This document shows positions 13,626 to 33,719 of a stretch of DNA of 37,145 bases, one piece after another. Each line of letters opens with the position of its first letter. The stretch's first letter is position 1. The notes beneath the pieces were generated by a model, which worked only from the letters and a program-made list of their open reading frames with translations, searched no databases and had not been told where the DNA came from. Source of the DNA: a bacterium (GTDB lineage Bacteria; Patescibacteriota; Microgenomatia; UBA12405); assembly GCA_029561175.1 (NCBI GenBank), contig JAKQJL010000034.1, positions 1-37,145 on the forward strand, given 5' to 3'. A program made the position numbers and the translations under genes.

Positions 13626-14363
13626 ATGAAGCTAAAGATTGGAATTATCTTATTGTTGGTTTTAATCTCTGCCTATTTAGGCACAAAAATATTTCAAAAA
13701 CCTACTGTTCAAACAAAAATTGAACAAATAAAGCAGGAGATTGTTCCCACCAAGCCCATTCATCTCGATTCAACTGGCCTTCCTAATCGTTATTTAATCG
13801 AGGCTCCTTTTGTCGAACAAGCTCCCAAAAAAGATTGGTCACAACCTTGGCAAGATGCCTGTGAGGAAGCAGCCCTGTTAACACCCTACTATTATTATTC
13901 TTCAATTACTCCTTCCTCAGATCAAATTGTTCAAGATTTAACTAAAATATTTGACTATGAAAACTCTCAAGGTTGGAGTCATGATGTTAACTTAGAACAA
14001 ATGCAACAAATTGCTCAAGATCTTTGGGGATTATCTTCAGAAATTATTCAAAATCCAACTGTGGATCAAATCAAAGAAAGGATTACCAATAATCAACCAA
14101 TAGTCGTTCCTGCCAATGGAAAAACACTATTTAAAGAAAATAAACATTTTAAAGCTGGTGGTCCTTGGTATCACAATTTAGTCATTATTGGTTTCGACGA
14201 TGATCAAAAAAAATTCATTGTTCACGATGTCGGTACTCAATTTGGAGCTAAATTTAAGTACAGTTACTCATTATTATTAAAAAGCATTCACGATTTTCCA
14301 TCCACCTTAAATAAAGAAGATATTGATCAAGGTGATCAAAAAGTTCTAGTTTTGTTAAAATAA
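13626..14363 (+). CDS. membrane-anchored C39-like cysteine peptidase
   Basis: A 245-aa protein with one N-terminal membrane segment (about 4-22) and an extracytoplasmic papain-like domain of the Peptidase_C39_2 type. The likely catalytic residues are C79 in WQDACEEAA, H183 in WYHNLVIIG and D201 in VHDVGTQFG, with Q73/Q76 as candidates for the oxyanion hole. Such domains cleave peptides, but those not fused to an ABC exporter have no known specific substrate. It begins a plus-strand run of envelope genes and may process exported proteins. The next gene starts 3 bases downstream. Confidence 0.82.
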   Translation: MKLKIGIILLLVLISAYLGTKIFQKPTVQTKIEQIKQEIVPTKPIHLDSTGLPNRYLIEAPFVEQAPKKDWSQPWQDACEEAALLTPYYYYSSITPSSDQIVQDLTKIFDYENSQGWSHDVNLEQMQQIAQDLWGLSSEIIQNPTVDQIKERITNNQPIVVPANGKTLFKENKHFKAGGPWYHNLVIIGFDDDQKKFIVHDVGTQFGAKFKYSYSLLLKSIHDFPSTLNKEDIDQGDQKVLVLLK

Positions 14364-15593: not shown

Positions 15594-16660
15594 ATCTCGA
15601 AGAATTACTTCAGAAGTTAGAAAAAATAAAATTAAAACTAAATTATTCAGATTTAGTTAATCAACTTCAAGTTTTCAAACAACAATCTACTGACGAGTCA
15701 ATTTGGTCGGATCCATCAAAAGCAGCTGAAATTATGCAAGCTATTTCCGACTTGGAAAAAATAATTACCCAGATTGATCAAACAGAAAAAGAACTAATTG
15801 AATTGGTTGAATTTAGTAAGCTTTTAGAATCAGAATCCGATCAAGACTTAACTCAAAACCTACTCTCCCGCCAGCGTGAATTAACCAAACTAATTGAACA
15901 ATTAGAACTACAAACATATTTGTCTGGTAAATACGATAAAAATGGTTGCATATTTTCTATTCATTCTGGCCAAGGCGGTACTGAAGCTATGGATTGGGCC
16001 TCAATTTTACAAAGAATGTATTTACGTTATTTCGATCGTAAAGGGTGGAAATACGAACTTTTAGATGAAATTCGAGGCGAAGAAGCTGGAATAAAAACTG
16101 TTAGTTTTAAAATAACCAATTCCTATTCTTATGGTTATTTAAAAGGTGAAAACGGAGTCCATCGCTTAGTTAGGCTCTCGCCTTTTAATGCTGATCAATT
16201 AAGACAAACATCTTTTGCTAAAGTAGAAGTCACTCCGATTATCGATTCAAAATCTGATTTTCAAATTAAAAATGAAGATATCGAGTTTTCAGCCTATCGT
16301 TCTGGTGGGCATGGCGGACAAAACGTTAATAAAGTTTCAACTGCTGTTAGATTAGTTCATAAACCAACTGGAATTGCCGTTAGTTGTCAAAGTCAACGCT
16401 CACAAGATCAAAATCGTTTATTGGCCATGGAAATGCTCGCTTCAAAATTATGGGCTATCGAACAAGAGAAATATAACTCCGAAAAAAAAGAGATTAAAGG
16501 AGAAAATGTCATTGCTGGTTGGGGTCATCAAATTCGTTCTTATGTTCTACATCCCTATAAAATGGTTAAAGATCTCAGAACCCGAGAAGAAACTTCAGAT
16601 ACCACTGCAGTTTTAGACGGGGACTTAGATAATTTTATTAATGCCGAATTAAAACAATGA
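15590..16660 (+). CDS. prfB: peptide chain release factor 2
   Basis: RF2 ends translation at UGA and UAA. The 356-aa protein has the stop-codon-reading tripeptide SPF (197-199) and the catalytic GGQ loop (242-244, in [11 protein letters not shown]). The N-terminal helical domain carries the RF2-like [11 protein letters not shown] near 35-45. The gene is one continuous frame: the programmed +1 frameshift near codon 25 used for autoregulation in many bacteria is absent. Presence of RF2 and of TGA stops in the window agrees with the standard bacterial code. It overlaps both neighbours by ATGA. Confidence 0.96.
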
Positions 16661-17661
16661 AAAAAGTAATATTTTTATTTTACTTTATTTTTACACTAAT
16701 TTTTACTTCGCTTTACTTAGGTCTTTTCCAGTTAGCCAAAATCACCAATAAACGTATTGATTATTTTCCCAAACTCGTTATTAATACTCTTCAAAACAAA
16801 TCTACTGCTTCGCGAAATATTTTAGTTTTAGGTCTCGATCCTCGTGACGACAAAATTGAAAAAACCAATACCACTGATACTATTATGTTGGCTAAAGTTA
16901 GCTCTAAAGATTTAAGAATTATTTCTATTCCTCGTGACTTGTGGGTATATTCACTTTCTAAAAAAGTCAATCAAATTTATGAGTTATCTCAAACTCAAAC
17001 AGATCGTTATCAATATCTCAAAACCAATTTTGAAAAACTTACTAATCAAAAAATAGACAATTTGCTAATTATTACTAGTAAAAATTTAATCGATATTATC
17101 AAAATTGTTGGTGGAGTCGATGTTCAACTTGAAATTGGTTTTAAAGATACTCAATATCCCAATCCAGAATATATTAAAAATCCTAATCCAAACATACCTA
17201 TTTATAAAACCGTTGAGTTTAAATCTGGTTTAGTTCATCTCGATGAAACCAATGTGGTTGAATTTGTCAGATCACGTCACGGTGCTGAAACTGCCGCTTT
17301 AAATGGTACCGATCTTGGAAGAATTAATCGCCAACAATTATTAATTAATGCTCTCCAACAAAAACTTCTCAATTTACCCAAAAACATCAATAGCCTCAAA
17401 ATACTACTTAATCTTTATAATTATTATTCTCATTCAATTGAAACTGACTTGGAAGATCAACAATTATTTAGTTTGGCCTATCAATTACTACCAAATTTAG
17501 ATAAATTTAGCATTAACAAAACCGTCGTACCTACCAGCGAAAACAATACTACCCCAATTTATCATCCTAATTTTAATATTAATGGTGCTTGGGTGTTTAT
17601 TCCTAAAGAAAAAAATTACCAATCATTGCATAATTATATTAATGACTATTTCAAAGACTAA
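16657..17661 (+). CDS. LytR-CpsA-Psr (LCP) family glycopolymer transferase
   Basis: LCP enzymes move glycans from polyprenyl-pyrophosphate carriers to peptidoglycan or to surface proteins. The 334-aa protein has one N-terminal membrane segment (about 4-26) and the extracytoplasmic LCP domain: [30 protein letters not shown], and FVRSRHGAE with GRINRQQLL. The Arg and Asp residues that bind the pyrophosphate in the family are retained. It overlaps prfB by ATGA and the methyltransferase by 20 bases. It could be the attachment step for the glycan made by the locus at 22-37 kb. Confidence 0.93.
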
Positions 17662-18365: not shown

Positions 18366-18821
18366 ATGGATATTCAAAATTTAGCCACACCAGAGGTAAA
18401 AACAACTAACACAAAATACATCTACTTAATTATTGTTTGTTTGGCGATCGGTTCTGGTTTTTGGTTGTCTAGACTAAGTTTAGGTAAGAAAGAACCCGTT
18501 ACTAGTAATTCTCCTAAAAATACAGAAATTGTCAGTCAAGTAACCAATAAAGATCAAATTCAAGTCGGCAAAACCTATGGCACTGTTGAAGCTCGCTATA
18601 AAGATACCGCTACTGGAGTTTTGGAAGCTGGAAATATTAACGGTGAAGGTACCCATATTTTAGTTCGTGAAGGTGGTCTTTCTCAAAGAGCTTCGTTAAC
18701 TTCGTCTGTTCTTGATCTTGATATGTTCGTTGGTCATAAAATCGAAATCAAAGGCGAAACCAATGCTTCCAACAAAACTTCATGGTTGATGGAGGTTGGA
18801 GTTGTCAAAGTCTTAGAATAA
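18366..18821 (+). CDS. membrane-anchored extracytoplasmic protein, OB-like domain, first gene of ftsEX operon
   Basis: A 151-aa protein with one membrane segment (about 19-38) and an extracytoplasmic domain. The segments KTYGTVEARYKDTATG, GEGTHILVREGG, SSVLDLDMFVGHKIEIKGET and WLMEVGVVKVLE look like the strands of a small OB-like barrel (VGHKIEIKGET is a typical OB strand-turn). I recall similar conserved hypotheticals in CPR genomes, but know no function. It ends 3 bases before ftsE, so a role linked to FtsEX or to wall hydrolysis is a fair guess. Confidence 0.75.
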   Translation: MDIQNLATPEVKTTNTKYIYLIIVCLAIGSGFWLSRLSLGKKEPVTSNSPKNTEIVSQVTNKDQIQVGKTYGTVEARYKDTATGVLEAGNINGEGTHILVREGGLSQRASLTSSVLDLDMFVGHKIEIKGETNASNKTSWLMEVGVVKVLE

Positions 18822-18824
18822 TCT

Positions 18825-19502
18825 ATGAAAATAGCTTTTAATAATGTTGTCAAAAACTATGGATCAGTCAATGCTCTTAATGGTGTTTCGTTTACCATTA
18901 AACCATCTGAATTTGTTTTTTTAGTTGGTTCTTCTGGAGCTGGCAAATCAACTTTGATCAAACTTTTATTAGCACAAATTAAACCATCATCAGGTGAAAT
19001 TAATATTAACGATCAAGACTTAAATTCTTTTCGAAAAAAAGAGTTAGACGAACATCGTCGCAAAATTGGCGTAATCTTTCAAGATTATCAACTGATTGTC
19101 GATAAAACTATTGAAGAAAATATTGCTTTGGCCCTAGATATTTCAGGCTATCCCCAAAATCAAATAAAATCTCGAATTGACGAAGTAACTACCTTAGTTA
19201 ATCTTCATCACCGACAAAATCAATTCCCATCACAACTATCAGGAGGGGAGTTGCAACGCGCTGCTTTGGCTCGAGCTCTAGCTCCAAATCCAGAAGTAAT
19301 TTTAGCTGATGAACCAACTGGTAATTTGGATAATGAAAATAGTTGGAATCTGTTAAGATTGTTTAAAAAAATCAATCAAAAATTTGGCACGACTATTTTA
19401 ATGACCACTCATAATCAAGATTTCATCGATTCCTTAAAATATCGGACTATTATTATTGATGATGGTTTAATTGTTAAAGATTTACCAACCAAAGAATCAT
19501 GA
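18825..19502 (+). CDS. ftsE: cell-division ABC transporter ATPase FtsE
   Basis: FtsE is the ATPase that, with FtsX, transmits conformational signals to peptidoglycan hydrolases at the septum. The 225-aa protein has Walker [11 protein letters not shown], a Q-loop near FQDYQL, the signature [15 protein letters not shown], Walker [13 protein letters not shown] and the H-loop TTHNQDF. It ends in an ATGA overlap with ftsX. The MacB/LolD families are similar, but adjacency to ftsX and an M23 gene settles the call. Confidence 0.94.
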
Positions 19503-20365
19503 CCGCAAATTCAACTTGGCATCATCTTCGTCGATCACCATTTCAAAGCCTAGCCGCAATTATTGTTATCTATGTTTGTTTTTTGTTCCTTAATTTCTTT
19601 TATCTTTTTAGTTCTGGTGCTTCAAATTTGTTGAAATTTTTAGAAACCAAACCCGAGATCACTATTTATTTAAAGGATGGTTTAGATAAATCGATTGTTG
19701 AAGGACTTCAAAAAGAATTAACAAATTATCCAAGTATTCGTGAAATTAAATTTATTTCCAAAGAAAAAGCCCTAAGTATCTATAAAGAATCCAACAAAGA
19801 CAATCCACTCCTAACCGAAATGGTTACTTCAAGCATTCTCCCAGCCTCATTTGAAGTCTCAACCTCAGATCCAAAAGTCCTCGATCAAATTTATCAAAAC
19901 TTTACTTCAAAAACCAAAGAAATTGATGAAATTATTTATCAAAAAGAAGACATCGAAAAAATTCTCAAATGGACAGCTATTCTCCGAAACATCGGTTTCG
20001 CTATCGCTATTTTGTCTATTATTTTTACTGTCTCCATCGTCAGTACTATTATTGGTATGAAAATAATTTCTAAGAAAGAAGAAATTAAAATTTCAAGATT
20101 ATTAGGCGCTTCGAAAAAATATGTTAAAAGTCCATTTCTTAATGAAGGATCAATTTATGGAATTATTGGAAGCTCACTGTCAAATCTGACTATCTTAGTT
20201 GTTTCTCTTTCTCTTCAATCAAAAATAAATAGCTTTTTTGAGTTAACATTTATCCCCAATGATCCTGTTTTTTATTTAATTAGTTTTTTTATTTCGGTTG
20301 TCTCCGGTTTATTGCTTGGTTTAGTTTCTATCAGTTTGGCTGTTAATCGCTATATCAAATTTTAA
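19499..20365 (+). CDS. ftsX: cell-division ABC transporter permease FtsX
   Basis: FtsX is the membrane partner of FtsE and binds extracellular hydrolase activators. The 288-aa protein has four membrane segments (near 20-40, 160-188, 215-238 and 256-280), with the extracytoplasmic loop between the first two (about 45-155) holding the FtsX-type sequence EITIYLKDGLDKS and FISKEKAL. The stop is directly followed by the ATG of the M23 hydrolase gene, with no gap, indicating tight coupling with its likely effector. Confidence 0.93.
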   Translation: MTANSTWHHLRRSPFQSLAAIIVIYVCFLFLNFFYLFSSGASNLLKFLETKPEITIYLKDGLDKSIVEGLQKELTNYPSIREIKFISKEKALSIYKESNKDNPLLTEMVTSSILPASFEVSTSDPKVLDQIYQNFTSKTKEIDEIIYQKEDIEKILKWTAILRNIGFAIAILSIIFTVSIVSTIIGMKIISKKEEIKISRLLGASKKYVKSPFLNEGSIYGIIGSSLSNLTILVVSLSLQSKINSFFELTFIPNDPVFYLISFFISVVSGLLLGLVSISLAVNRYIKF

Positions 20366-21445
20366 ATGCGTTTAAAATTATTTTTAATTTTAATCAGTAT
20401 ATTTATTTTTGCCTCTCCCATTAAGGCCACTACTACCGAAGAATTAACCAAACAAATCGAAGAGTACGATAAAAAAATTGTTGATCTAGAAAAAACCAAA
20501 GACTCATTATCAAAACAAATAAAAATACTTAACTCTCAGGTTGAGTTAACTTTACTTAAAATTAATCAAACTCAACTTTCAATCAAAACTCTCGAAAACG
20601 AAATTACGTCACTAAGTTCAATAATTGGTAATCTAGACATTAATCTCAATCAATTGTCTTCAATCTATCTTGCTCAGGTAGTTGAAAATTATAAAATGCA
20701 AAAAAAAGTACCTTTGGTTAGTTTTTTACATTCTAAAAGCTTCAACTCTTTTTTAAATCAGTATAAGTACCATTCAACTCTCCAAAAAAATAATCATCAA
20801 ACTATGGTTGAATTGGAAACAGCTAGAACTAATTATGATATTCAAAAAAATCAGAAGGAATTAAAACAAAAAGAGCTCGAAATTCTTAAAGAAAAGCTCT
20901 CAAGTCAACAATCTAACCTAGATAAACAGAAATCTAATAAAACCAACCTATTGGAAGTAACCAAAAACGATGAATCAAAGTATCAACAATTAAAAAAAGC
21001 CGCTGAAGACGAACTTAGTGCCCTGATTAAAGCAAAATTTGTTGGTAAGCGCGAAGTAAAAAAAGGCGAGCCAATTGGCATTATGGGTAACACTGGTTAT
21101 TCATTTGGTGACCATCTTCATTTTGGTCTCTATAACCTAAAAGAAGCTGAAATTGCTTCTTGGACCTATCAAAACGATATTGATGCTAGTTCATATCTTG
21201 GTGAACATCGCTGGCCAATGGTAAATTATGAAATTACTCAGGGTCGTGGCCATACCAAATATTCTTACCTCTATGCTGATCGTTTCCATCATGGAATTGA
21301 TATGGTCTCGAGCAATAAAACTATTTATGCTGTCGAAGATGGAGTTGCTTACTTCTTCAAAAATCCATCAAGCAGTTTAGGCAACCATGTCAAGTTGTTC
21401 CATTCCGATGGAAAAATGACACTCTACTTACACTTGCAAAATTAG
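20366..21445 (+). CDS. secreted coiled-coil M23 (LytM) peptidase with circularly permuted catalytic domain
   Basis: Probable peptidoglycan endopeptidase or hydrolase activator controlled by FtsEX, comparable in layout to EnvC. The 359-aa protein has a signal peptide (1-22), a long coiled coil (about 24-110 and 140-220, with the family break VPLVSFLHSKSF) and a C-terminal LytM domain. The domain halves are swapped: KKGEPIGIMGNTGY with HLHF (H250, H252) comes first, then ITQGRGHT, HHGIDM (H308, D312), AVEDGVAYF, and TLYLHLQN (H356) at the end. Zinc ligands H308, D312, H252 and catalytic H356, H250 are therefore all present in permuted order. The stop overlaps the convergent gene by 4 bases. Confidence 0.9.
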   Translation: MRLKLFLILISIFIFASPIKATTTEELTKQIEEYDKKIVDLEKTKDSLSKQIKILNSQVELTLLKINQTQLSIKTLENEITSLSSIIGNLDINLNQLSSIYLAQVVENYKMQKKVPLVSFLHSKSFNSFLNQYKYHSTLQKNNHQTMVELETARTNYDIQKNQKELKQKELEILKEKLSSQQSNLDKQKSNKTNLLEVTKNDESKYQQLKKAAEDELSALIKAKFVGKREVKKGEPIGIMGNTGYSFGDHLHFGLYNLKEAEIASWTYQNDIDASSYLGEHRWPMVNYEITQGRGHTKYSYLYADRFHHGIDMVSSNKTIYAVEDGVAYFFKNPSSSLGNHVKLFHSDGKMTLYLHLQN

Positions 21446-22053
21446 TAACCTCGAGCTAGTTTTCTTAATCCTAAAGAAGCTAAGGCCATCAAACTACCAA
21501 AAACAGAACCTAATACTAAGATATTGCTTCCAGTATCGGGAATGTTATTACTAGCAATGTAATAGCTAGCTCTATCATTATCGTAAGCATTTTGATTTCT
21601 TACTTCAGCAAAATTAGTTAAAGCTACTGGATTAGTTCCAATTGGGCTATTAACAATTCGACCTCTAATCATCAATACTTTGGTTTCACCAACACCTAAA
21701 CTATCAATAGTAGTAGTAATTCGATTGTTTTTTTGATCAAACTCACCAGGATAATATTGTAAAGATAAATATTTAGGTAAATTATCAGTTACTGTCAGAT
21801 TAGTTAAAACCGAATTACTTCGATTCTCAACCACTAATCTAAACTCAATCCCATCGTTTTCATTAAATACGTAAGTATTTCTGGAAATGTTATCAACAAA
21901 TTCAGTTTGAGCAGTTGATCTTATAGTTTTATCAATAACAACACTATATCTGTTGTTTTGATTATGATATTGTGCCCAAGCTTTTGAGCCGCTATTTAAA
22001 AATAGGGTCATAAATAAGGCACATGTGACTAACGATTTATTTAATTTATTCAT
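21442..22053 (-). CDS. secreted DUF11-like protein with IPDTG sortase signal
   Basis: A 203-aa cell-surface protein. It has a signal peptide (1-27, AWA before the cleavage site), a DUF11-type beta-sandwich at about 55-165 (ENRSNSVLTNLTVTDNLP, then NPVALTNFAEV) and a classical C-terminal sorting signal: IPDTG at 171-175, a hydrophobic segment at about 178-196 and a basic tail (RKLARGY). It is thus a predicted substrate of the sortase at 3107-3796. The strong promoter upstream suggests high expression. It is a single-domain protein, so it may be a pilin-like or surface-coat subunit; that is a guess. Confidence 0.85.
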   Translation of the reverse strand: MNKLNKSLVTCALFMTLFLNSGSKAWAQYHNQNNRYSVVIDKTIRSTAQTEFVDNISRNTYVFNENDGIEFRLVVENRSNSVLTNLTVTDNLPKYLSLQYYPGEFDQKNNRITTTIDSLGVGETKVLMIRGRIVNSPIGTNPVALTNFAEVRNQNAYDNDRASYYIASNNIPDTGSNILVLGSVFGSLMALASLGLRKLARGY

Positions 22054-22076: not shown

Positions 22077-22104
22077 ATTATAACTCATAAGATTATTTTG
22101 TCAA
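22077..22104 (-). promoter_or_regulatory. perfect promoter TTGACA-N16-TATAAT of the IPDTG surface protein
   Basis: On the minus strand TTGACA (22104-22099) and TATAAT (22082-22077) match the consensus at all 12 positions with a 16-base spacer. The start near 22070 leaves about 17 untranslated bases without a Shine-Dalgarno sequence. Confidence 0.75.
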
Positions 22105-22123
22105 GTAAGCTTAATAAAATATT

Positions 22124-22132
22124 TGTTATACT
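22124..22132 (+). promoter_or_regulatory. extended -10 promoter (TGTTATACT) of the glycan locus, leaderless geometry
   Basis: TG-T-TATACT ends 7 bases before the ATG at 22140, so transcription would begin at the start codon. There is no -35 at the right distance. It probably drives the whole plus-strand glycosyltransferase run. Confidence 0.55.
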
Positions 22133-22139
22133 CTTTTGT

Positions 22140-22862
22140 ATGACTAAATTAATTCCAGAACTCTCTGTATTTTTCCCTTGTTACAACGAAGAAGCTAATC
22201 TTAAGAACACTTTTGATAAAGCACTACCTGTTATAAAAGAAGTTGCCGATAAATGGGAAGTAATTATTATCGACGATGGTTCTAAAGATAAAACTCCATT
22301 AATTGCTTCCCAAATAGCCAAAGAATATCCAAATAATTTAAAAATCGTCACTCATAATCCTAATCGTGGATATGGTGGCGCCTTTAAAAGTGGTTTGTAT
22401 AACTCTCAATACCAATGGGTGGCTTTTACCGATGCTGACGGTCAATTTGAGTTTACCGACCTCAAGAAACTAATAAACAAACAAAAAGAAACTGGTGCTG
22501 ATATGGTTATAGGCTACTATTTAGGTCGAAAAGTACCTTTTATTAGAATCTTCGGCTCAAAAGTTTGGCAATTTATGGTTAACCTCTTATTTGGTTTATC
22601 TGTAACTGATATTGATTGCGGATTCAAACTAATCAACAAAAAAGTAATCGATACTATTCCCAAACTGGAATCTGAAAGGGGACCATTTATTACTTCAGAA
22701 TTTTTAATCAAATCTAAAAAAGCTGGTTTTAAGATTGTTGAAGTTGGAGTAACTCATTATGCTCGCCAGTTTGGTGAAGCCACTGGAAGTAAGCTAAATG
22801 TAGTTATTGCTGGTTTTAAAGATTTGTTTCGTCTTTGGATAAAGCTTACTTTTAACAAATGA
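22140..22862 (+). CDS. GT2 glycosyltransferase, polyprenyl-phosphate mannose synthase-like (DPM1 type)
   Basis: Predicted to transfer a sugar from a nucleotide donor to polyprenyl phosphate on the inner face of the membrane. The frame opens at 22098; ATG 22140 fits the family N-terminus and the promoter, giving 240 aa. GT-A motifs: FFPCYNEEANL, IIDDGSKDKT, NRGYGGAFKSG, DADGQFEFTDL (metal-binding DAD) and DIDCGFKLINKK. There is no C-terminal membrane domain. The ATGA overlap with the next gene, a GT-C enzyme that would use polyprenyl-phosphate sugars, supports the assignment. Confidence 0.88.
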   Translation: MTKLIPELSVFFPCYNEEANLKNTFDKALPVIKEVADKWEVIIIDDGSKDKTPLIASQIAKEYPNNLKIVTHNPNRGYGGAFKSGLYNSQYQWVAFTDADGQFEFTDLKKLINKQKETGADMVIGYYLGRKVPFIRIFGSKVWQFMVNLLFGLSVTDIDCGFKLINKKVIDTIPKLESERGPFITSEFLIKSKKAGFKIVEVGVTHYARQFGEATGSKLNVVIAGFKDLFRLWIKLTFNK

Positions 22863-24265
22863 TTCAGTTTCTTAAGAAAAACTACTTATTAATCGCAATT
22901 CTTTTATTGGCCGCTTTTCTTCGGCTCTATAAAATTTCAGATTATATGGAGTTTTTGGGTGATCAGGGTCGCGATGTTGTCATTGTTCGTGATTTCTTAA
23001 AAAACGGTAATCTCTTTTTTATTGGTCCACAAACTAGTATTGGTAACATGTATCTTGGCCCATTTTACTATTACGTTATCATGGCCCCAGCTCTACTCAT
23101 TGCTAATTTCAATCCGGTCGGCCCAGCAATTTTTGTAGCCCTACTAGGAGTTTTAACTGTTTATTTTGCTTTTTATATTTCCCAAAAATGGTTTAATTCA
23201 AAAACAGCCTATATCAGCGCTCTGCTTATGGCCATATCTCCAGTAATCATCAAGTATTCTAATTTTTCTTGGAATCCAAATATTTTGCCTCTTTTTTCGT
23301 TGTTATTTATCTATTTTCTTTGGGAAAAAAAGATCATTTTGGCTACTTTATCGTTTATTATGGCTATCAATTCTCATTATTTAGCCTTAAGTTTACTACC
23401 TTTAGCTTTTATTATCTGGTTTCTCAAAAAATATTCTTTCAAAGCAACTTTAGTTGCTATTCTTTTGTTCATTCTCTCTTTAACACCTCAAATTCTTTTC
23501 GATCTAAAGCATCAAGGTCAAAATATTAAATCAATATCTACCTTCTTTACCCAAAGAGAAACAACCGTCAACCTAAAGCCTTATAAATCTTTAATTAAGA
23601 TGCCTACTATTTATCATCAGTTGGTAACTAGTTCTTTATCAGCTAGAAATTTTAATTTAGGTATCGCCGTTTCTATCTTTTTATTACTAGGTTCAGTTTA
23701 CTTATTAGTCAAAAAAAGAACTCCCGCTTTGTTGTTAATCGTCGGTTGGATTATTTCCAGTGTAATTATCCTAGGTCTATACAAACAACATCTCTATGAT
23801 CATTATTTTGGTTTTGTTTTTCCGGCGTTTTTTATTCTAACCGGTTATCTTTTAAGCAAAATCAACAAATATTTATCAATCATTATTCTTATTATTTTAG
23901 TTTCATTTAGTGTTCTAAATACTAACTTTAAGTACCCCGGCCCAAAACAACTAGAAACTACTAAAACTATTGTTAAACAAATTATTAGTACGGCCGATAA
24001 TCGACCGTTCAACTTTGCTTTATTAGCCAAACAAAATTATGATCCAGGATATCGTTATTTTTTCTACGAATCTCAGTCTTCTCTTAAAAATATTCAAGAA
24101 CAATTAACCGATCAATTATTTGTTGTTTGTGAGCCTTGGCAAATCGATTGCCAACCAATAAATAATCCAGAATGGGCTGTTGCCGCTTTTGGTTGGGCAA
24201 AAATCGATAAACAATGGGAAACAAATGGTATCAAAATTTATCAACTTAGCCACACTAAAATCTAA
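22859..24265 (+). CDS. GT-C membrane glycosyltransferase, PMT/ArnT (GT39/GT83)-like
   Basis: A 468-aa integral membrane protein with about 11-12 membrane segments and an extracytoplasmic C-terminal tail. The first loop has FLGDQGRDVVIVRD, an acidic motif like the GT-C catalytic loop, followed by IGPQTSIGNMYLGPFYYY. GT-C enzymes take sugar from a polyprenyl-phosphate carrier outside the membrane and transfer it to protein, lipid or glycan. The acceptor is unknown. It is clearly paralogous to the next gene. Confidence 0.82.
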   Translation: MIQFLKKNYLLIAILLLAAFLRLYKISDYMEFLGDQGRDVVIVRDFLKNGNLFFIGPQTSIGNMYLGPFYYYVIMAPALLIANFNPVGPAIFVALLGVLTVYFAFYISQKWFNSKTAYISALLMAISPVIIKYSNFSWNPNILPLFSLLFIYFLWEKKIILATLSFIMAINSHYLALSLLPLAFIIWFLKKYSFKATLVAILLFILSLTPQILFDLKHQGQNIKSISTFFTQRETTVNLKPYKSLIKMPTIYHQLVTSSLSARNFNLGIAVSIFLLLGSVYLLVKKRTPALLLIVGWIISSVIILGLYKQHLYDHYFGFVFPAFFILTGYLLSKINKYLSIIILIILVSFSVLNTNFKYPGPKQLETTKTIVKQIISTADNRPFNFALLAKQNYDPGYRYFFYESQSSLKNIQEQLTDQLFVVCEPWQIDCQPINNPEWAVAAFGWAKIDKQWETNGIKIYQLSHTKI

Positions 24266-25733
24266 TTTACTTTTAATCGTAATTTGGTTAACCGCCTTAT
24301 TTGTCAGATTTTATCGTCAAGATCAACTTTTAGGATTTTATTATGATCAAGGTCGAGATGCCAAAATGGCTCACGACATTATCACCTTAACCAATCTTCC
24401 TACTATTGGTCCAACTACCGGCATTCAGGGCCTATATTTAGGTCCTTTTTGGTACTACCTAATTACCCCTGGGTATTTTTTAGGCAATGGTAATCCCGCT
24501 GTTGCCGCTTTGTTTATCTCAGTTATCGAATCATTCTCGATATTCTTATTATTCTATTTATTAACCAAATATTATTCTAAGTCTGCAGGCTATTTGGCTA
24601 TTATTTTTTGGTCATTTAGTAACTACTTAGTCAGATCTAGCCGTTGGTTTAGTAATCCCACTCCTATTCCAACATTTTCACTTCTTCTAATACTTTTTTT
24701 GCTAAATATTGTGATTCATCGTCGCTACTATCAACTACTTTTTTTAACACTGTTTCTTGGGCTATCATTGCAATTAGAGGCAGCTTCGGCAATATTCTTT
24801 ATTCCTTCAATCTTATTATTTATATTCGTAAATTTTGATAGCTTTAAAAAAATCCCCTTAAAATACTATTTTTATTCTTCATTAACCTTTTTTCTTACTT
24901 TAATTCCTCAATTAGCTTTTGAAATAAAAAATCATTTTCCTACCACCAAAGTTTTTATTGGTTTTCTAAGTGGTAAAGTAAATACTATTTCTGGCAAATC
25001 CTGGGGGATACCAACTATTGAATTCGTCATTAATCGTCTTAAATTTTACTATCAAGTGTTTTTTACCAAATTAGATACCAATTTACGGCCATTAACTTTC
25101 CTTCTATTTATTTTATTTATTATCGGATTATTCTATTTGTTTAAAACAAAAATTCAAAACAAATTAGTTCAAATATCTTTAATTTGGTTATTAGTACCTC
25201 TTTTTTTACTTCTATTTTTTCAAGGTAATTATGGAACCTTGTATGATTACTATTTAACTGGTTTTTTTTCTGCTTTTATTATTGTTTTTTGTTTATCTAT
25301 TTTTTCCTTTCCAAATCGTTTTTTAGTTATTCTTTTTTCGTTTTTATCCTTAGTAATCTTTTTCAATGGCAATTTGATTCATTTAAAGAACTACTTAATT
25401 GCCAATCCAGACGGTCCTACTCATATTAGTTTAGGAAATCAAACTCAAGCTCTTTTGTTCGCTTGCCAACAAACTCAAGATTACAATCTTAATATTTATG
25501 TTCCACCAATTACTCCTCACACTTATGAGTACTTGCTTTCCTGGTATTCTTCAAAAGGAATTTGTAAATCTCCAAGCCAATCTAATCAAAAAACAGTTAT
25601 TTCTCTCTATGAAGTTGACCCCAATAATCCCTCAACACTAGCTAACTGGTTGAAAAGTCAGGATACAATTGGGAGAATAGAAAAGCAACAAATCTTTGGT
25701 GGAGTTATAGTTCAACAAAGATTAAGACAATAA
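24225..25733 (+). CDS. GT-C membrane glycosyltransferase, tandem paralogue of the preceding gene
   Basis: A 502-aa membrane protein with about 11-12 segments. The frame opens at 24180; ATG 24225 places the first hydrophobic segment near the N-terminus and leaves a 41-base overlap with the preceding gene. The first loop, GFYYDQGRDAKMAHD then IGPTTGIQGLYLGPFWYY, aligns directly with the same loop of the previous protein, so the two arose by duplication. Divergence elsewhere suggests different donors or acceptors. Confidence 0.82.
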   Translation: MVSKFINLATLKSNLLLIVIWLTALFVRFYRQDQLLGFYYDQGRDAKMAHDIITLTNLPTIGPTTGIQGLYLGPFWYYLITPGYFLGNGNPAVAALFISVIESFSIFLLFYLLTKYYSKSAGYLAIIFWSFSNYLVRSSRWFSNPTPIPTFSLLLILFLLNIVIHRRYYQLLFLTLFLGLSLQLEAASAIFFIPSILLFIFVNFDSFKKIPLKYYFYSSLTFFLTLIPQLAFEIKNHFPTTKVFIGFLSGKVNTISGKSWGIPTIEFVINRLKFYYQVFFTKLDTNLRPLTFLLFILFIIGLFYLFKTKIQNKLVQISLIWLLVPLFLLLFFQGNYGTLYDYYLTGFFSAFIIVFCLSIFSFPNRFLVILFSFLSLVIFFNGNLIHLKNYLIANPDGPTHISLGNQTQALLFACQQTQDYNLNIYVPPITPHTYEYLLSWYSSKGICKSPSQSNQKTVISLYEVDPNNPSTLANWLKSQDTIGRIEKQQIFGGVIVQQRLRQ

Positions 25734-25736
25734 ATT

Positions 25737-26510
25737 ATGGCTAACAATCTTTCCATCTCGATAATTATTCCCTGTTATAACGAAGAAGCAAACATTAAAA
25801 GGGGAGTTTTAGATGAAGTTTTTAACTATTTAAAATCACAAAAATTTGCTTGGGAAGTAATTATTGCTAACGACGAATCTACCGATAATAGCCTTGAATT
25901 AATTAAAGATTTTACTGCCAATCATCAAAACTTTAGATACTTAGATCTTCCCCATGGAGGCAAACCCTCAGCAGTTTGGGGTGGTATCCAAAAAGCTAAA
26001 TATCCCTATGTCTTATTTACTGACATGGATCAATCAACCCCCTTAGTAGAACTAAATAAATTTTTACCTTATTTTGAAGATCAAGTTGATGTGGTTATTG
26101 GTTCTCGAGGATCTTCACGTGAGGGTAATACTTTTATACGTAAAGTTGGCTCAAAAATATTTTTATTTGGTCGACGATTAGTTTTGTTATCAAAAATTAT
26201 TGATACTCAGTGTGGTTTTAAAGCCATGAAAACCGCGGTAGCTTTAAAAGTATTTCCTCAGTTACAATTTTTTAAAGATAAATCAGAAAAAAAAGGCTGG
26301 CGAGTATCTGCTTATGACGTCGAATTACTATTTATCTGTCAGAAATTAGGTTTTCAGATTGAAGAAGTTGAAGTTGAATGGAAAAATGAAGACACTAGCA
26401 CCACCAAAGGTGATCTCAACGCTAGATACCGTAAAGAATCTATTCAAATGTTAAAAGAAATTTGGCGAGTTTTGAAGAACAATCTCAAAGGTGTTTATGA
26501 TCAAAAATAA
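25737..26510 (+). CDS. GT2 glycosyltransferase, polyprenyl-phosphate glucose synthase-like (ALG5 type)
   Basis: A 257-aa soluble GT-A enzyme: SIIIPCYNEEANI, IANDESTDNSLE, HGGKPSAVWGGIQKA, FTDMDQSTP (in place of the usual DADL-TP) and IDTQCGFKAMKT. The G-K-AV-G pattern and the TP after the metal motif resemble dolichyl-phosphate glucosyltransferases. It probably makes a polyprenyl-phosphate sugar for the adjacent GT-C proteins. It starts 3 bases after the previous gene and overlaps the next by 14. Confidence 0.85.
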   Translation: MANNLSISIIIPCYNEEANIKRGVLDEVFNYLKSQKFAWEVIIANDESTDNSLELIKDFTANHQNFRYLDLPHGGKPSAVWGGIQKAKYPYVLFTDMDQSTPLVELNKFLPYFEDQVDVVIGSRGSSREGNTFIRKVGSKIFLFGRRLVLLSKIIDTQCGFKAMKTAVALKVFPQLQFFKDKSEKKGWRVSAYDVELLFICQKLGFQIEEVEVEWKNEDTSTTKGDLNARYRKESIQMLKEIWRVLKNNLKGVYDQK

Positions 26511-28017
26511 AACCTTATTATTTTGGATATTATCATTATTATCAATTGTTTTTTATTTTTTTAGTAGGCTTCAAAATCTTACTATTATTCCAGTATTTGG
26601 CGATGAAGCTATTTATCTTCGTTGGTCTCAAATAATTAAATCAGTCGAAACCTTACGCTTTATACCTCTTACTGATGGTAAACAACCATTATTTATGTGG
26701 GTCACGGTATTATTCTTTAAAATTGTTTCAGATCCTTTAATTGCCGGCAGGCTTGTTTCAGTTTTTTCTGGTTTTTTCACTTTAATTTTTATTTATTTGA
26801 TTTTATTAATCGGTCAAAATTATTCTTCATCTCAAACAGATTTTAAAAAATTTTTAGTTGAATCATTTAAAAAATCTCAAATTAGTTCTTTTCTTGGAGT
26901 ATTTATTTATCTTACTTCAACCTACTTTTTCTTTTTTGATCGTTTAGCAGTTCCCGACAATCTTTTGTCATCTTTATTAACCGTCTCTCTTTTTCTTTTA
27001 TTGCTAATATTGAAATTTCCACGATTTGATCTAGCTATTTTACTTGGCATTTCTCTTGGCATTTCTTGGTTAACCAAATCACCTGCTGTTTATTTTATTA
27101 CCATAAGTCTTTTTTTCTTAATTTCTAAATTCAAAATCAAGTATCTTTTTTATTTTTTTACCGTGCTTATATTTTCATTTACTATCTACAACATCCTTCG
27201 TCTTGGGCCTCAATTTCATCAAATTGCCCTTCGAAATCAAGATTACATCTGGTCATTATCTGAAATTATCAAACACCCTTTCGATCCCTTATTACCACAC
27301 GTATCCGACATAAAAACATTATTGTCGACCTATTTCAACCCACTTTTTCTAATTATTTTTGTTTCTTTACTAATCAAGAAAATCATCAAAAAAGATTTTT
27401 CTAATTTTTATTTTTATTTAATTCTTTTTTTCTGGTTCTTAGCTCCAATGCTTGCTACCGCTATTTTTGCTAAAGTTTTTACCGCTCGATATATTTTATT
27501 TTCAATGCCAGCCTTAACACTTTTCTTTAGTATCTTAATTCTTGAGTTAACTAATAGAAAAATCTTATTAATAGTTTTATTACTTCAAATATTTCCATTG
27601 ATACTAAATCTAAAGCTTTCTACTAATCCTATGTTTATTCAACTTCCAAGTACTGAAACTGGTTATCTTCAAGATTGGACATCCGGCTGGGGTATTCAGA
27701 CTGCTTCCAAATATTTAATTGATCGTTCTTCTCAAGCAAATGTTATTGTTGGCACCGAAGGTTATTTTGGTACACTTCCCGACGGACTACAGATTTATAC
27801 TAATCAGAAAAATCAGTTAACAGTATTTGGTGTTGGTATTGGTTTTGAAAAAATTCCCGAAAAATTAATTGATGCTCGTAATCATGGAGACGAGGTTTAT
27901 TTATTACTAAATCAAAGCCGACTCAAACTTCTTCCCCAAGAAACTGATAAACTAGAAATAATTCAAAAGTATTTAAAACCCAAACAAGATTATTTAATTT
28001 TATATCGTTTAAAATGA
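26497..28017 (+). CDS. GT-C membrane glycosyltransferase, GT39-like
   Basis: A 506-aa membrane protein with about 10-12 segments. The first extracytoplasmic loop has PVFGDEAIYLRWSQ, an acidic motif of the GT-C type, then TDGKQPLFMWV, which resembles the PMT/ArnT family. A GTG at 26491 adds two residues; ATG 26497 is preferred. It ends in an ATGA overlap with the next gene. It is paired with the ALG5-like enzyme upstream. Confidence 0.8.
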   Translation: MIKNKTLLFWILSLLSIVFYFFSRLQNLTIIPVFGDEAIYLRWSQIIKSVETLRFIPLTDGKQPLFMWVTVLFFKIVSDPLIAGRLVSVFSGFFTLIFIYLILLIGQNYSSSQTDFKKFLVESFKKSQISSFLGVFIYLTSTYFFFFDRLAVPDNLLSSLLTVSLFLLLLILKFPRFDLAILLGISLGISWLTKSPAVYFITISLFFLISKFKIKYLFYFFTVLIFSFTIYNILRLGPQFHQIALRNQDYIWSLSEIIKHPFDPLLPHVSDIKTLLSTYFNPLFLIIFVSLLIKKIIKKDFSNFYFYLILFFWFLAPMLATAIFAKVFTARYILFSMPALTLFFSILILELTNRKILLIVLLLQIFPLILNLKLSTNPMFIQLPSTETGYLQDWTSGWGIQTASKYLIDRSSQANVIVGTEGYFGTLPDGLQIYTNQKNQLTVFGVGIGFEKIPEKLIDARNHGDEVYLLLNQSRLKLLPQETDKLEIIQKYLKPKQDYLILYRLK

Positions 28018-29738
28018 TCAGTTTTATTAAAAAACATCGCTATCTGTTAATTTTATTGTTAGCTATTATTCCCACAATTTCTTTTTTACTAAAACCAAAT
28101 GAATATTGGAATATGCACGATGATATGCAAGTAATTCGTCAGCTTTCAATGGAAAAATGCCTCAAAGATGGCCAAATACCGTGTCGATGGTCTCCAGATT
28201 TAGGCTATGGCTACGGATATCCTTTATTCAATTTTTATCCTCCAATGCCATATTTTGTTGGTCAGGTTTTTCGAACTTTTGGTTTTAATTATCTAACTAC
28301 TGTTAAATTAACGGCTCTAACTCAAATTGTTTTAAGTACTTTAGCCATGTATCTTTTAGCTTCTTCTATTTTTGGTTCTTTTGGAGGTCTGGTCTCGGCC
28401 ATATTTTATGCCTATGCTCCTTATCATGCCCTTAATATTTATGTTCGTGGGGCTATGAACGAAGCTTGGGCTGCTGTCTTTTTTCCTCTAATATTTCATT
28501 TTTCTAGAAAGTTAATTATCGATAAAAAAATTTCCTCTCTAGTTCTTTTTTCACTCTCTTTTTCTGGTCTATTGCTCTCACACAACCCAATGGCTTTAAC
28601 TTTTACTTTATTTTTATTTATCTGGGTTTTGTTTTTTCTTTATCAAAATTATCGCTCAATTAAAGATACCCTGCAAACTATTCTTAAACTTTTTATTTCG
28701 GCTATTTTTTCTCTATCTTTAACTGCTTTTTATACTATTCCTGTTTTATTAGAAACCAAATATGTTCAAATTGAAACCATGTTTCAAAATTATTATCACT
28801 GGTCAGTTCACTTTACTAGTTTAAAACAATTATTTATCAGTAATTATTGGGGCGATGGAGCTTCAGTTTGGGGCCAAGACGATCGAATGTCTTTTATGGT
28901 TGGCTATCTCCATTGGCTACTTCCTCTCTTTTTGATTTTATATTTCATTTTTAGTTTTGTTAAAACCAAGAAAATATCTACAATTTCTTTTGTCTCACTA
29001 TTAACAGCTTTAATGGGTTTCTTTGCTGCTTTTATGACTCATGAAAGATCAGCTTTTATTTGGCTCCTAATTTCCCCAATTCAAAAAATTCAATTTCCTT
29101 GGAGATTTCTCAATCATTCAGTTTTTCTTTTGTCTATTTCAGTTGGAATTATCCCTAGTCTTTTTTCCAGTTTTAAAAAATATTCACTCTATCTTAGTTC
29201 TTTGATTTTACTAATAGTCGTCTTTTTAAATATTAGCTATTTTACCCCAATTACTCATGGTCCAATTTCTGAGCAACAAAAATTATCCGGTAAAGCTTGG
29301 GTTAATCAAGTGACTTCCGGGATCTACGATTATCTTCCCAAAACTGCTCGAATTGCTGCTCAAGGCCCGGCCAAAGACTTTGTTGATAGTCTTAGTCCAG
29401 AAGTAAAATATCAGGTCACTAATGCCAAAAAGGGGACTAATTGGCAAATGTTTGATCTTTTTTTAGAAAAGTCCACCAATGTCACTTTGCCAATTCTTAG
29501 CTATCCTATTTTTAAAGTTTACGACAATAACCAATTAATTGATTATAGTGTTGAACCAGAACTGGGTCGTTTAGTAGTTAGTTTATCTTCAGGTAATCAT
29601 CAACTATTTATTAAACTAACCGACACTCCAGACCGCACTATATCTAATATTGTTTCTTTACTTGCTTGGTTGAGTCTACTTATTTATCTTTTGATAAATT
29701 ATGTCATCAAACCTAGATGTCAATTCCATCAAAGATAA
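28014..29738 (+). CDS. large membrane protein, PTPS-related/YfhO-like GT-C superfamily
   Basis: A 574-aa membrane protein with about 11-12 segments and a C-terminal extracytoplasmic region (about 420-540). MHDDMQVIRQL in the first loop, DLGYGYGYPLFNFYPP and FYAYAPYHALNIYVRG resemble the membrane family labelled 6-pyruvoyl-tetrahydropterin synthase-related; despite the name these are not pterin enzymes and look like GT-C glycosyltransferases. The end overlaps the flippase gene by 38 bases. Confidence 0.75.
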   Translation: MISFIKKHRYLLILLLAIIPTISFLLKPNEYWNMHDDMQVIRQLSMEKCLKDGQIPCRWSPDLGYGYGYPLFNFYPPMPYFVGQVFRTFGFNYLTTVKLTALTQIVLSTLAMYLLASSIFGSFGGLVSAIFYAYAPYHALNIYVRGAMNEAWAAVFFPLIFHFSRKLIIDKKISSLVLFSLSFSGLLLSHNPMALTFTLFLFIWVLFFLYQNYRSIKDTLQTILKLFISAIFSLSLTAFYTIPVLLETKYVQIETMFQNYYHWSVHFTSLKQLFISNYWGDGASVWGQDDRMSFMVGYLHWLLPLFLILYFIFSFVKTKKISTISFVSLLTALMGFFAAFMTHERSAFIWLLISPIQKIQFPWRFLNHSVFLLSISVGIIPSLFSSFKKYSLYLSSLILLIVVFLNISYFTPITHGPISEQQKLSGKAWVNQVTSGIYDYLPKTARIAAQGPAKDFVDSLSPEVKYQVTNAKKGTNWQMFDLFLEKSTNVTLPILSYPIFKVYDNNQLIDYSVEPELGRLVVSLSSGNHQLFIKLTDTPDRTISNIVSLLAWLSLLIYLLINYVIKPRCQFHQR

Positions 29739-31158
29739 GTCAACTTCAGGTGTTCTGTTTTTGACAATTAGAAATATTGGAATTCAATCGGTGTCTGTTT
29801 TGGGATATTTTATTTTGACAATTATTTTGGGAACCTCCGAGGTTGGTTTATTTGCTATTGTAGCCGAATCAATTAGTATTCTTGGGTATTTTTCTGATAT
29901 TGGTTTAGCGGCTGCTTTAATTCAAAAAAAAGAAACTCCCTCAAAAAAAGAATTTGATTCAACTTTTACCTTTCAACAACTTCTAGTTACTATTGGTTTA
30001 GTAGTTGTTTCATTGGTTTTTTTCAATATTTATCAACAAAAAAGTTACGGCACCAAAGAGTTATTTATATTTATTAGTTTATGTTTCTCTTTTTTTGTTG
30101 GTTCATTAAAAACTATCCCATCAGTAATTTTAGAAAGAGAATTAGACTTTAAACTTTTATCTACCGTTGATATTATTGAAAATATTATTTTCTATAGCAT
30201 TGCTGTTCTTTTTGCCTTTTTGGGTTTTTCAACCAATTCATATGCAATTGCTGTATTTATTAGAAGTCTGATTGGTCTAATTATTATTTATAAAAAAACC
30301 AGCTATCGCCCTCAGTTAAACTTTTCTTTTACTTCTTTAAAACAATTATTTAAGTTTGGTATTCCCTATCAAGCCAACAGCTTTATTGCTGTTGCTAAAG
30401 ATAAAATATCAAATCTTTTTGTGGCGGCAATTATTGGACGAGAAGGTTTTGGTATTCTTTCTTGGAGTCAAAAAGGGCCCAGAATTCCTCTTTCTTTTAT
30501 GGATTCAATTATGAAAGTTTCTTTTCCGGTATTTTCTCGACTTCAACACGACCCAGAAAATCTTCGAAGATCTTTAACCAGAACTTTATCAGTTATTTCT
30601 TTAATTATATTTCCCGCATTAACTATCATTTCACTAGTATCTTCAAACTTAATTTATTTAATTCCTAAATACTCAAAATGGTCACCAGCAATCATTCCCT
30701 TATACTTGTTTTGTCTTAATAATCTGATTGCGGCTGTAACCACTCCTTTAACCAATTCTTTTAATGCTGTTGGCAAAATCACTTTAACTTCAAAATTTAT
30801 GATTATGTGGACAGTTTTAACTTGGATATTTTACCCCCTTTTAAGTTTTCGATATGGTTATTTGGGCACCGCCATTGCTTCGGTTGTTGTCAGTTCTTCT
30901 TCAATAATCGTTTGGTACTATGCTCATAAAGTCTTCAACATCAATGTCTTTAAAATTATCACTCCTTATTTATTGGGATCGTTAATTATTCTCTTCTTGG
31001 GTATTCTTTTTAAAATAATCATTAATCAATTACTTGTTCAAATTATTTTAATTCTTCTCTTTTGTCCTTTATTTTATTTTGTTTTTATCTATTTTGCTGA
31101 TCGTCATAATTTACTATGGCTATACACTCAAATTCAAACACGATTAAAACAAAAATAA
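29701..31158 (+). CDS. Wzx-type oligosaccharide flippase (MOP superfamily)
   Basis: Moves polyprenyl-linked oligosaccharide units across the membrane. The 485-aa protein has about 12-14 membrane segments, without a soluble domain. Family signs include the N-terminal NIGIQSVSVLGYFILTIILG, DIGLAAALIQKKE, LERELDFKLLS and FGIPYQANSFIAV. The start overlaps the previous gene by 38 bases; the only alternative would be inside the first helix. It is the one flippase of the locus, implying that at least one glycan is assembled on the cytoplasmic face. Confidence 0.9.
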   Translation: MSSNLDVNSIKDKSTSGVLFLTIRNIGIQSVSVLGYFILTIILGTSEVGLFAIVAESISILGYFSDIGLAAALIQKKETPSKKEFDSTFTFQQLLVTIGLVVVSLVFFNIYQQKSYGTKELFIFISLCFSFFVGSLKTIPSVILERELDFKLLSTVDIIENIIFYSIAVLFAFLGFSTNSYAIAVFIRSLIGLIIIYKKTSYRPQLNFSFTSLKQLFKFGIPYQANSFIAVAKDKISNLFVAAIIGREGFGILSWSQKGPRIPLSFMDSIMKVSFPVFSRLQHDPENLRRSLTRTLSVISLIIFPALTIISLVSSNLIYLIPKYSKWSPAIIPLYLFCLNNLIAAVTTPLTNSFNAVGKITLTSKFMIMWTVLTWIFYPLLSFRYGYLGTAIASVVVSSSSIIVWYYAHKVFNINVFKIITPYLLGSLIILFLGILFKIIINQLLVQIILILLFCPLFYFVFIYFADRHNLLWLYTQIQTRLKQK

Positions 31159-32771: not shown

Positions 32772-32783
32772 TAAAATAGATTT

Positions 32784-33719
32784 ATGGAAAAAAAACCTTT
32801 GATAAGCTTGGTTATTAATGTTCGAAATGAAGCCGAAAACTTGGATCGTTGTTTAAAATCTGTAAAAGGATTCGCCAATGAAATCGTTATTGTCGATATG
32901 CATTCAACCGATAACAGCTTAGAAATCGCCAAAAAATACAACTCAAGAGTATTTTCTTATCGACCAATGAAATATGTCGAACCTGCCAGAAATTACGCTC
33001 TTTCAAAAGCTAAAGGTAAATGGATTCTTCTTCTCGATCCAGATGAAGTCTTAACTTCCACTTTAAAAAAAGAATTACTAACTATTATTAAAAGAGAAGA
33101 TGTCGATTTTGTTAAAGTTCCTCGAAAAAATCTAATTTTTGGTAAATGGATTCGACACAGTAAATGCTGGCCGGATTATTTAATTAGATTTTTTAAGAAA
33201 AACTCTGTCACCTGGAAAAATGAAATTCACAGTCAACCTGAATGTAAAGGCAACAGTTTAACTTTAATTGATGTTGAATCCATGGCAATCAAACACTACA
33301 ATTATCGATCTGTTAGCCAGTATTTAACTCGAGCTATCAGATATTCTTCTGTCCAAGCTGATGAATTGTTTGAATCTGGTTATCGTCCCAAAATTACCGA
33401 TTTTCTTCTAAAACCTATCCAAGAATTTAATTCTCGTTATTTTTATGCCGAAGGATACAAAGACGGCATGCATGGCTTAATATTTTGTTTACTTCAATCT
33501 TTTTCGATTTGTTTAATCTATATTCGTCTTTGGGAAAAAAATGGCTCTGAAGATAAAACTGTTTCAAAAGAATCTTTTGTTTCTGCCGTTCAAGAATCTC
33601 TTTTTGAATTCGGACATTGGTTCAGTCTTTATTTTAAAAATGAATATTCAAAAAACATTTTTAAAAACTTATTAATAAAAATTCGTCAAATATTAAATCG
33701 TCTTACTAAGAATTTCTAA
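32784..33719 (+). CDS. GT2 glycosyltransferase, WaaE/KdtX-like
   Basis: A 311-aa GT-A enzyme. Motifs: LVINVRNEAENLDRCL, IVIVDMHSTDNSLEIA, VEPARNYALSKAKGKWI and the metal-binding LLDPDEVL. The EPARNYAL segment and DPDE are typical of the WaaE-like group that adds a sugar to lipid-linked glycans. A hydrophobic stretch near 230-248 (LIFCLLQSFSICLIYI) suggests membrane association. Starts 12 bases after the previous gene and ends with a one-base overlap (TAATG) with the next. Confidence 0.87.
   Translation: MEKKPLISLVINVRNEAENLDRCLKSVKGFANEIVIVDMHSTDNSLEIAKKYNSRVFSYRPMKYVEPARNYALSKAKGKWILLLDPDEVLTSTLKKELLTIIKREDVDFVKVPRKNLIFGKWIRHSKCWPDYLIRFFKKNSVTWKNEIHSQPECKGNSLTLIDVESMAIKHYNYRSVSQYLTRAIRYSSVQADELFESGYRPKITDFLLKPIQEFNSRYFYAEGYKDGMHGLIFCLLQSFSICLIYIRLWEKNGSEDKTVSKESFVSAVQESLFEFGHWFSLYFKNEYSKNIFKNLLIKIRQILNRLTKNF

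Follow-up and report, generated by a model that had tools for sequence, protein, structure and literature searches.

A circularly permuted M23 peptidase domain, identified from sequence, encoded directly behind ftsX in Patescibacteria

Gene neighbourhood and protein layout

The window (the whole stretch of DNA that was analysed, 37,145 nucleotides, from a genome of the Patescibacteria) carries ftsE and ftsX followed by a gene for a 359-residue protein (Table 1). The ftsE and ftsX genes overlap by 4 nt, the third gene starts right at the end of ftsX, and this ftsX is the single match in the genome. The first-pass annotation had described the third gene as coding for a probable wall hydrolase coupled to ftsX, with a coiled coil and a permuted catalytic domain. 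Its reading frame and the five active-site residues assigned to it were confirmed from the DNA, and the coupling agrees with the NCBIfam and Pfam matches that identify FtsE and FtsX directly upstream.

Table 1. Features of the ftsEX locus and of the protein encoded behind it
Feature	Position	Strand	Basis
ftsE (ABC ATPase, 225 aa)	18825..19502	+	NCBIfam TIGR02673, 1e-77, 260.6 bits, slightly below the cut-off of 264.85
ftsX (288 aa)	19499..20365	+	PF18075 FtsX_ECD, 1.4e-15; PF02687; NCBIfam TIGR00439, 3e-49
Gene of coiled-coil protein with circularly permuted M23 domain (359 aa)	20366..21445	+
Probable signal peptide, residues 1-21, ...ASPIKA	20366..20428	+	Hydrophobic N-terminus, by inspection of the sequence
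Coiled-coil-type helical hairpin (predicted), residues 24-224	20435..21037	+	AlphaFold2 helices; VIA-align to EnvC
Short lobe in the hairpin, about residues 113-126, putative counterpart of the FtsX-binding tip	within 20435..21037	+
Half B (ordinary C-terminal M23 half, here first; V-K-K-G-E-P-I-G...HLHF), residues 225-257	21038..21136	+	Pfam and PDB-sequence matches; rotation test; predicted strands 225-231, 236-241, 250-257
New joint of the former C and N termini, residues 258-282	21137..21211	+	Alignment of permuted domains
Half H (ordinary N-terminal M23 half, here last; WPM...HHGIDM...TLYLHLQN), residues 283-359	21212..21442	+	Pfam and PDB-sequence matches; rotation test
H250 (catalytic His of HxH) and H252 (zinc ligand)	21113..21121	+	Conserved in the permuted family
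H308 and D312 (zinc ligands, HxGxD)	21287..21301	+	Conserved in the permuted family
H356 (second catalytic His, YLHL), 3 residues before the C-terminus	21431..21433	+	Conserved in the permuted family

The gene immediately 5' of ftsE (18366-18821, + strand) codes for a protein of 151 aa that has a single probable membrane helix. This protein matched no Pfam family above chance and is a possible unrecognised FtsEX partner. A LytR-CpsA-Psr family protein shortly upstream of ftsEX (16657-17661, +) suggests a wall-polymer neighbourhood, and about 4.5 kb 5' of ftsE lies a stand-alone Peptidase_C39_2 protein (13626-14363, +), which belongs to the same fold family as the alternative FtsEX-linked catalytic domains of relatives. 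On the other side, a gene for a DUF11 surface protein (21442-22053, -) is convergent with the hydrolase gene and overlaps it by 4 nt. The DUF11 protein ends in IPDTG...TM...KLARGY, an LPXTG-like sorting signal that scored 16.0 bits with Gram_pos_anchor, below the cut-off of 20. A long series of glycosyltransferases and membrane mannosyltransferase-like proteins follows downstream of the division genes (22098-37144, +).

Order of the halves and residues of the active site

The 359-aa protein scored 61.6 bits against PF01551 (cut-off 28.7). The match was spread over two stretches, the better of which aligned residues 306 to 358 with positions 1 to 53 of the 96-position profile. When the organism's own genome was scanned with PF01551, nucleotides 21281 to 21442 fell on profile positions 1 to 54 and nucleotides 21047 to 21139, located 5' of them, on positions 60 to 90. 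In a search of PDB sequences, both halves matched ordinary M23 proteins (such as 9gy1, 3slu, and 6muk) in swapped order. The motif V-x-K-G-x-x-I-G...HLHF is thus followed by HxGxD...YLHLQ, and the ordinary succession of HxxxD, YxH, and HxH is not found. The two halves, the zinc ligands (HxxxD and HxH), the two catalytic histidines, and a score above the Pfam cut-off are shared with ordinary M23/LytM domains (PF01551; LytM, lysostaphin, and ShyA), but here the halves are swapped, the chain ends just past the YxH strand, and the former termini are joined. Because the order of the motifs is reversed, the protein is classified as a circular permutant and not as a regular M23 member.

For a rotation test, a profile was built from ordinary, non-CPR M23 domains only, and domains were scored in the native and in the rotated order. 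The window domain in its native order gave two pieces of 50.7 and 41.3 bits; after rotation, it gave one piece of 102.6 bits that covered profile positions 5 to 121 of 126. Among 57 permuted representatives, with most families contributing one, rotation raised the score in 56, and the median rose from 42.1 to 82.1 bits. Held-out ordinary domains lost by the same operation, from 131.8 to 67.7 bits (n = 37, with two exceptions). Half B preceded half H in 136 proteins and followed it in 17, no longer series was detected, and each permuted ORF had one copy of each half.

These results indicate that, as far as sequence can tell, the window protein has a catalytic domain that is a genuine circular permutant of M23. 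The chain appears to have been opened behind the YxHL strand and before the one with V-x-K-G-x-x-I-G, and the old termini appear to have been joined by a short linker. The first-pass annotation had made both claims, the permutation and a cut in the loop between the YxHL and K-G-x-x-I-G strands, and had proposed a profile search with the halves swapped. The swapped Pfam and PDB stretches together with the rotation test bear it out on both points, and the search with swapped halves returned its single near-full-length match, at 102.6 bits, only after rotation. Chance, assembly error, and a local frameshift were ruled out as causes, because about 120 distinct proteins from other genomes repeat the same order.

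The same annotation had named the reading that would count against it, in which the protein holds two separate degenerate M23 copies with one half surviving from each. The native order does give two separate Pfam stretches. However, the halves are complementary and yield one full-domain score once rotated, the ligands of one zinc site are co-conserved across both halves, and exactly one copy per half is present in every permuted ORF, with no intermediate orders. Since there is one copy per half, the domain is not a degenerate pair; the two-copy origin is extremely improbable, and the claim of a permutation stands.

In EnpA, groove loops 1 to 4 connect beta1-2, beta4-5, beta9-10, and beta10-11 (PMC8269130). 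When the cut is mapped onto these loops, it would fall outside all four of them as assigned for EnpA.

The zinc ligands of LytM are HxxxD and the second His of HxH, and they match the residues of the window protein. H250 and H356 correspond to the two water-activating histidines of LytM, His260 and His291 (PMC4594094). In 120 distinct permuted proteins, a sample that includes close relatives, so that the residue counts are not independent, the position of H250 was His in 120, that of H252 was His in 119, that of H308 was His in 112 and Pro in 6, that of D312 was Asp in 118 with 2 gaps, and that of H356 was His in 118 with 2 gaps. Past the YxH histidine, the chain continued for a median of 2 residues. 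The prolines at the H308 position in 6 of the 120 may reflect misalignment or loss. The complete active site described earlier is therefore present, its five residues being near-invariant over the 120 proteins. EnvC does not have the complete set of active-site residues, and degeneration affects many of the LytM proteins linked to division (PMC9662197); the window protein, with all five, shows no such degeneration.

Distribution of the permuted domain and exchange of catalytic heads

A homologue search with the window protein gave matches in 51 of 56 relatives. A profile of the permuted domain matched over its full length in the majority of 187 genomes from the window's class (probably Microgenomatia), and it did so too in many families that belong to other groups of the phylum (Patescibacteria).

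In a survey of at least one genome per family, ftsX was located and the genes behind it were classified. Forty families of the window's class were covered, of which 28 had a permuted M23 gene behind ftsX, 11 had a C39-like gene, and 1 had both; ordinary M23 genes and empty positions were each found in none. For the rest of the phylum, 85 families were counted, a set that combines the survey with families fetched for a permuted match and approximates the families sampled with the permuted profile. Here, 18 families had permuted M23, 10 had ordinary M23, 8 had CHAP, and 3 had C39. The other 46 of these 85 families showed no recognisable hydrolase within about 450 nt behind ftsX (e.g., L149, L165, L175, and L181).

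The permuted gene lies directly behind ftsX in the window and in 46 other surveyed families, and its start is typically a few bases from the ftsX stop. The conjecture that the permutation could be common in CPR genomes was therefore correct (behind ftsX in 29 of 40 families of the window's class and in 18 of 85 elsewhere in the phylum). The stricter proposition that an FtsX-adjacent M23 domain is always permuted in the phylum was rejected, with ordinary M23 present there in the 10 families counted above. FtsEX coupling does not depend on the permutation, since the position behind ftsX is taken by a different head, or by none, in many CPR families. The genome of the window contains two further M23 genes, both of the ordinary order. 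Short permuted M23 proteins of 175 and 208 aa were also seen at positions not directly behind ftsX (L105:3657-4184 and L107:3769-4395, respectively); in the L107 protein, the coil was not recognised.

Outside the phylum, the permuted profile gave half-profile matches or none, and no full-length match, in 251 Chloroflexota and 249 Bacillota genomes. No full-length match was found in 198 Bacteroidota genomes either, a search that had no internal positive and is weak on its own. Among 30 named genomes, a full-length match was obtained only in the two that hold the loci L225 and L245. A pattern scan of the named genomes found nearly all M23 loci to be ordinary and the same two to be permuted, L225 (Patescibacteria UBA10118) and L245, both with the FtsX gene immediately upstream of the permuted gene. 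All other M23 genes with FtsX in the locus, including L226 of Chloroflexota and several of Bacillota, had the ordinary order. In viruses, 80 loci were inspected, 78 of them with both halves; these 78 were ordinary and none was permuted, and a viral search with the window protein alone found no relative. An occurrence outside the phylum was accordingly rejected at 0 full-length matches in about 700 genomes of three phyla, a count obtained with score cut-offs and a limited first look that rare or very divergent permutants could escape. Within the data searched, the permuted form, which is old and conserved, was seen in Patescibacteria alone.

A tree of the rejoined domains comprised 112 columns only, and its resolution is therefore low. 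The permuted sequences clustered, with L225 among families of the window's class. A tree in which all permuted sequences form one clade was better than the free tree by 8.7 log units (p-AU 0.64). A single origin of the permutation is thus compatible with the data and is preferred, because the constrained tree is better and the cut and end points are identical. Several independent origins within the phylum are unlikely. They would account for the free quick tree, which needs 3 changes of the permuted label and places some permuted rows among ordinary CPR rows, but grouping all permuted rows improves the tree, and the cut point, the C-terminal end, and the joint (...DPxxYL..WP...TQ.yG) are uniform throughout.

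A tree of the coil only required 25 changes of head type, indicating that heads were exchanged repeatedly on the same coil, and its strongly supported branches force at least 7 changes for the permuted head. In the window's own family, two tandem genes follow ftsX in G023 and G032, one of the C39 form and one of the permuted M23 form, and other members have only one of the two. In family f89, permuted and ordinary M23 genes stand in tandem behind ftsX (L096 and L108). The succession FtsX, permuted M23, ordinary M23 in these two loci (L096:2503-4945 and L108:3442-6122) is a possible trace of an origin of the permutation by duplication.

C39-like, papain-type heads on the ftsX-linked coil were observed in L017, L018, L132, L200, L204-L215, L121, and L122 and in the tandem of G023/G032. 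PF13529/PF03412 scored near or over the cut-off in L200 and L132, and L017 had no Pfam match. CHAP heads on the FtsX-adjacent coil, a PcsB-like architecture, were observed in other groups of the phylum (L125, L130, L137, L144, L166, and L176). The C39-like and CHAP proteins behind ftsX in related CPR (such as L017, L132, L130, and L144) share the coil and the gene position with the window protein but differ in the catalytic domain.

Coiled coil, joint, and control by FtsEX

AlphaFold2 (mean pLDDT 83.5) predicted helices at residues 24-112, 116-122, and 126-224 and, in addition to the three strands of half B (Table 1), strands at 288-292, 311-315, 319-321, 326-331, 340-345, and 350-357. All expected LytM-type strands were predicted, with pLDDT of about 85 to 96 over most of the domain and weak values at 261-270, from an alignment that included ordinary M23 half fragments. 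With three permuted sequences only, the catalytic domain was of low confidence. The best Foldseek match was FtsEX-bound EnvC (8tzl_E, E = 2.2e-5); EnvC 6tpi, RipA, RipC, and PcsB were also among the matches. VIA-align superposed the coil on FtsEX-bound EnvC 8tzk_E over 99 residues at 1.5 A (Z = 11.9), covering mainly the coil (residues 17-225). The fold match by itself is not specific, because other coiled coils score similarly, but relatives match PF24568 CC_PcsB, and these matches and the ftsX linkage agree with it. The coil is therefore predicted to be of the EnvC/PcsB/RipC type and to bind FtsX.

The distance from the end of the coil to the catalytic domain had a median of 9 residues in permuted proteins (52 families), compared with 23.5 in ordinary-order proteins (12 families of the phylum); with one value per family, the Mann-Whitney p was 3.7e-7. 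The groove of EnvC is blocked by a helical restraining arm of 50 residues, which is placed between the coil and the LytM domain (PMC7668044). A joint of only about 9 residues leaves no room for an arm of that type, and none is seen in the predicted fold, where the helix ends at residue 224 and the strand begins at 225. The first-pass annotation had proposed the coiled coil, which is upheld by the AlphaFold2 helices, the EnvC match, and CC_PcsB in relatives, and a linker that enters the domain at a different point, which can now be stated more sharply as about 9 residues, where ordinary-order relatives have about 24.

With EnvC, its top full-length fold match, the window protein has in common an N-terminal coiled-coil hairpin with a (predicted) FtsX-binding tip and a C-terminal M23 domain. 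In contrast, EnvC is catalytically dead, has the ordinary order, and carries the arm, whereas the window protein is complete in its active-site residues, is permuted, and has almost no linker. PcsB, CwlO, and RipC likewise combine a coiled coil with a head that is itself a hydrolase, but their heads are CHAP or NlpC/P60 and not M23. Pfam finds M23 only in the window protein, and no CHAP head.

Most probably (about 0.78), the window protein is thus exported and active as a zinc peptidase; it would cleave peptides of the cell wall, with FtsEX holding and switching it. In other FtsEX systems, autoinhibition is released by mechano-transmission (PMC11627006). For the permuted enzyme, we infer gating by FtsEX along the following lines. 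The tip of the coil would dock on the extracellular domains of FtsX, and ATP binding by FtsE would move or compress the coil. Because the second helix of the coil runs nearly straight into the first catalytic strand, this motion may act on the active-site sheet or reposition the whole domain, with no long restraining arm to be withdrawn. The active site would be exposed or straightened by the movement of the coil, and the active enzyme would itself cleave septal wall peptides, without an amidase partner. The difference from other FtsEX systems would be that the moving helix joins the catalytic sheet almost without a tether and at another entry point.

Two other readings bear on this. The protein could be permuted but inactive, a LytM factor like EnvC that merely activates amidases under FtsEX control. 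Such a role would be in keeping with FtsEX-bound EnvC as the nearest full-length fold match and with the many degenerate LytM proteins linked to division (PMC9662197). Yet the five active-site residues are kept in 93 to 100% of the 120 proteins, which a scaffold would not need, and the same coil bears catalytic C39 or CHAP heads in relatives, so that the slot points to a hydrolase; an inactive factor is improbable. A better chance, though clearly short of an even one, is given to the permutation being neutral, an ancient accident that left folding and gating as they are in ordinary M23 heads and shortened the joint only as a by-product. By the EnpA loop assignment (PMC8269130), the cut would fall in none of the four groove loops, and activity could therefore be unaffected. 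Ordinary M23, C39, and CHAP heads stand behind ftsX in other families, and the coil tree, with its 25 changes of head type, shows frequent exchange. On the other hand, permuted heads dominate the window's class, where 0 of 40 families have an ordinary-order head at ftsX although ordinary-order M23 genes are present elsewhere in the same genome, and the joint is consistently shorter.

The permutation might also be a functional invention, a strain-gated M23 enzyme in which an FtsX-driven helix is fused to the core strand near HxH, its head having then spread across Patescibacteria as a cassette on the FtsX-binding coil. This proposal is a tentative one that we consider doubtful, and it is similarly doubtful that the permuted topology is functionally essential for gating. 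If the proposal is true, the strand with the other catalytic His would be the free C-terminus, and FtsEX would switch the enzyme by deforming or aligning the active-site sheet, with no arm being lifted.

In the literature searched (open-licence papers), no description of a permuted M23/LytM domain was found, and searches on FtsEX or on CPR wall hydrolases gave none either. The string "permut" is absent from the M23 review and the FtsEX papers (PMC7668044, PMC9662197, and PMC11627006). On FtsEX in Patescibacteria, one paper was found, which merely counts ftsE and ftsX. Circularly permuted NlpC/P60 enzymes (YaeF/G6R, LRAT-like) are known (PMC6403190). They are a parallel case of natural circular permutation in a fold related to peptidoglycan enzymes, but theirs is an unrelated cysteine-peptidase fold. 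What appears to be new here is a phylum-wide topological variant of the catalytic domain; FtsEX-controlled wall hydrolases are of a known kind.

Annotation pipelines report the protein as "peptidase M23" and overlook the rearrangement, and searches by motif order would judge the domain to be broken. Circular permutation is uncommon among natural enzymes, and this M23 permutant has been kept across a phylum-wide slice of Patescibacteria, where it occupies the gene slot that controls the separation of daughter cells. In this phylum, the FtsX-binding coil appears as a chassis on which catalytic heads can be interchanged. The permuted enzyme leaves no space for the usual restraining arm and so offers a natural experiment for studying the switching of wall hydrolases by FtsEX.
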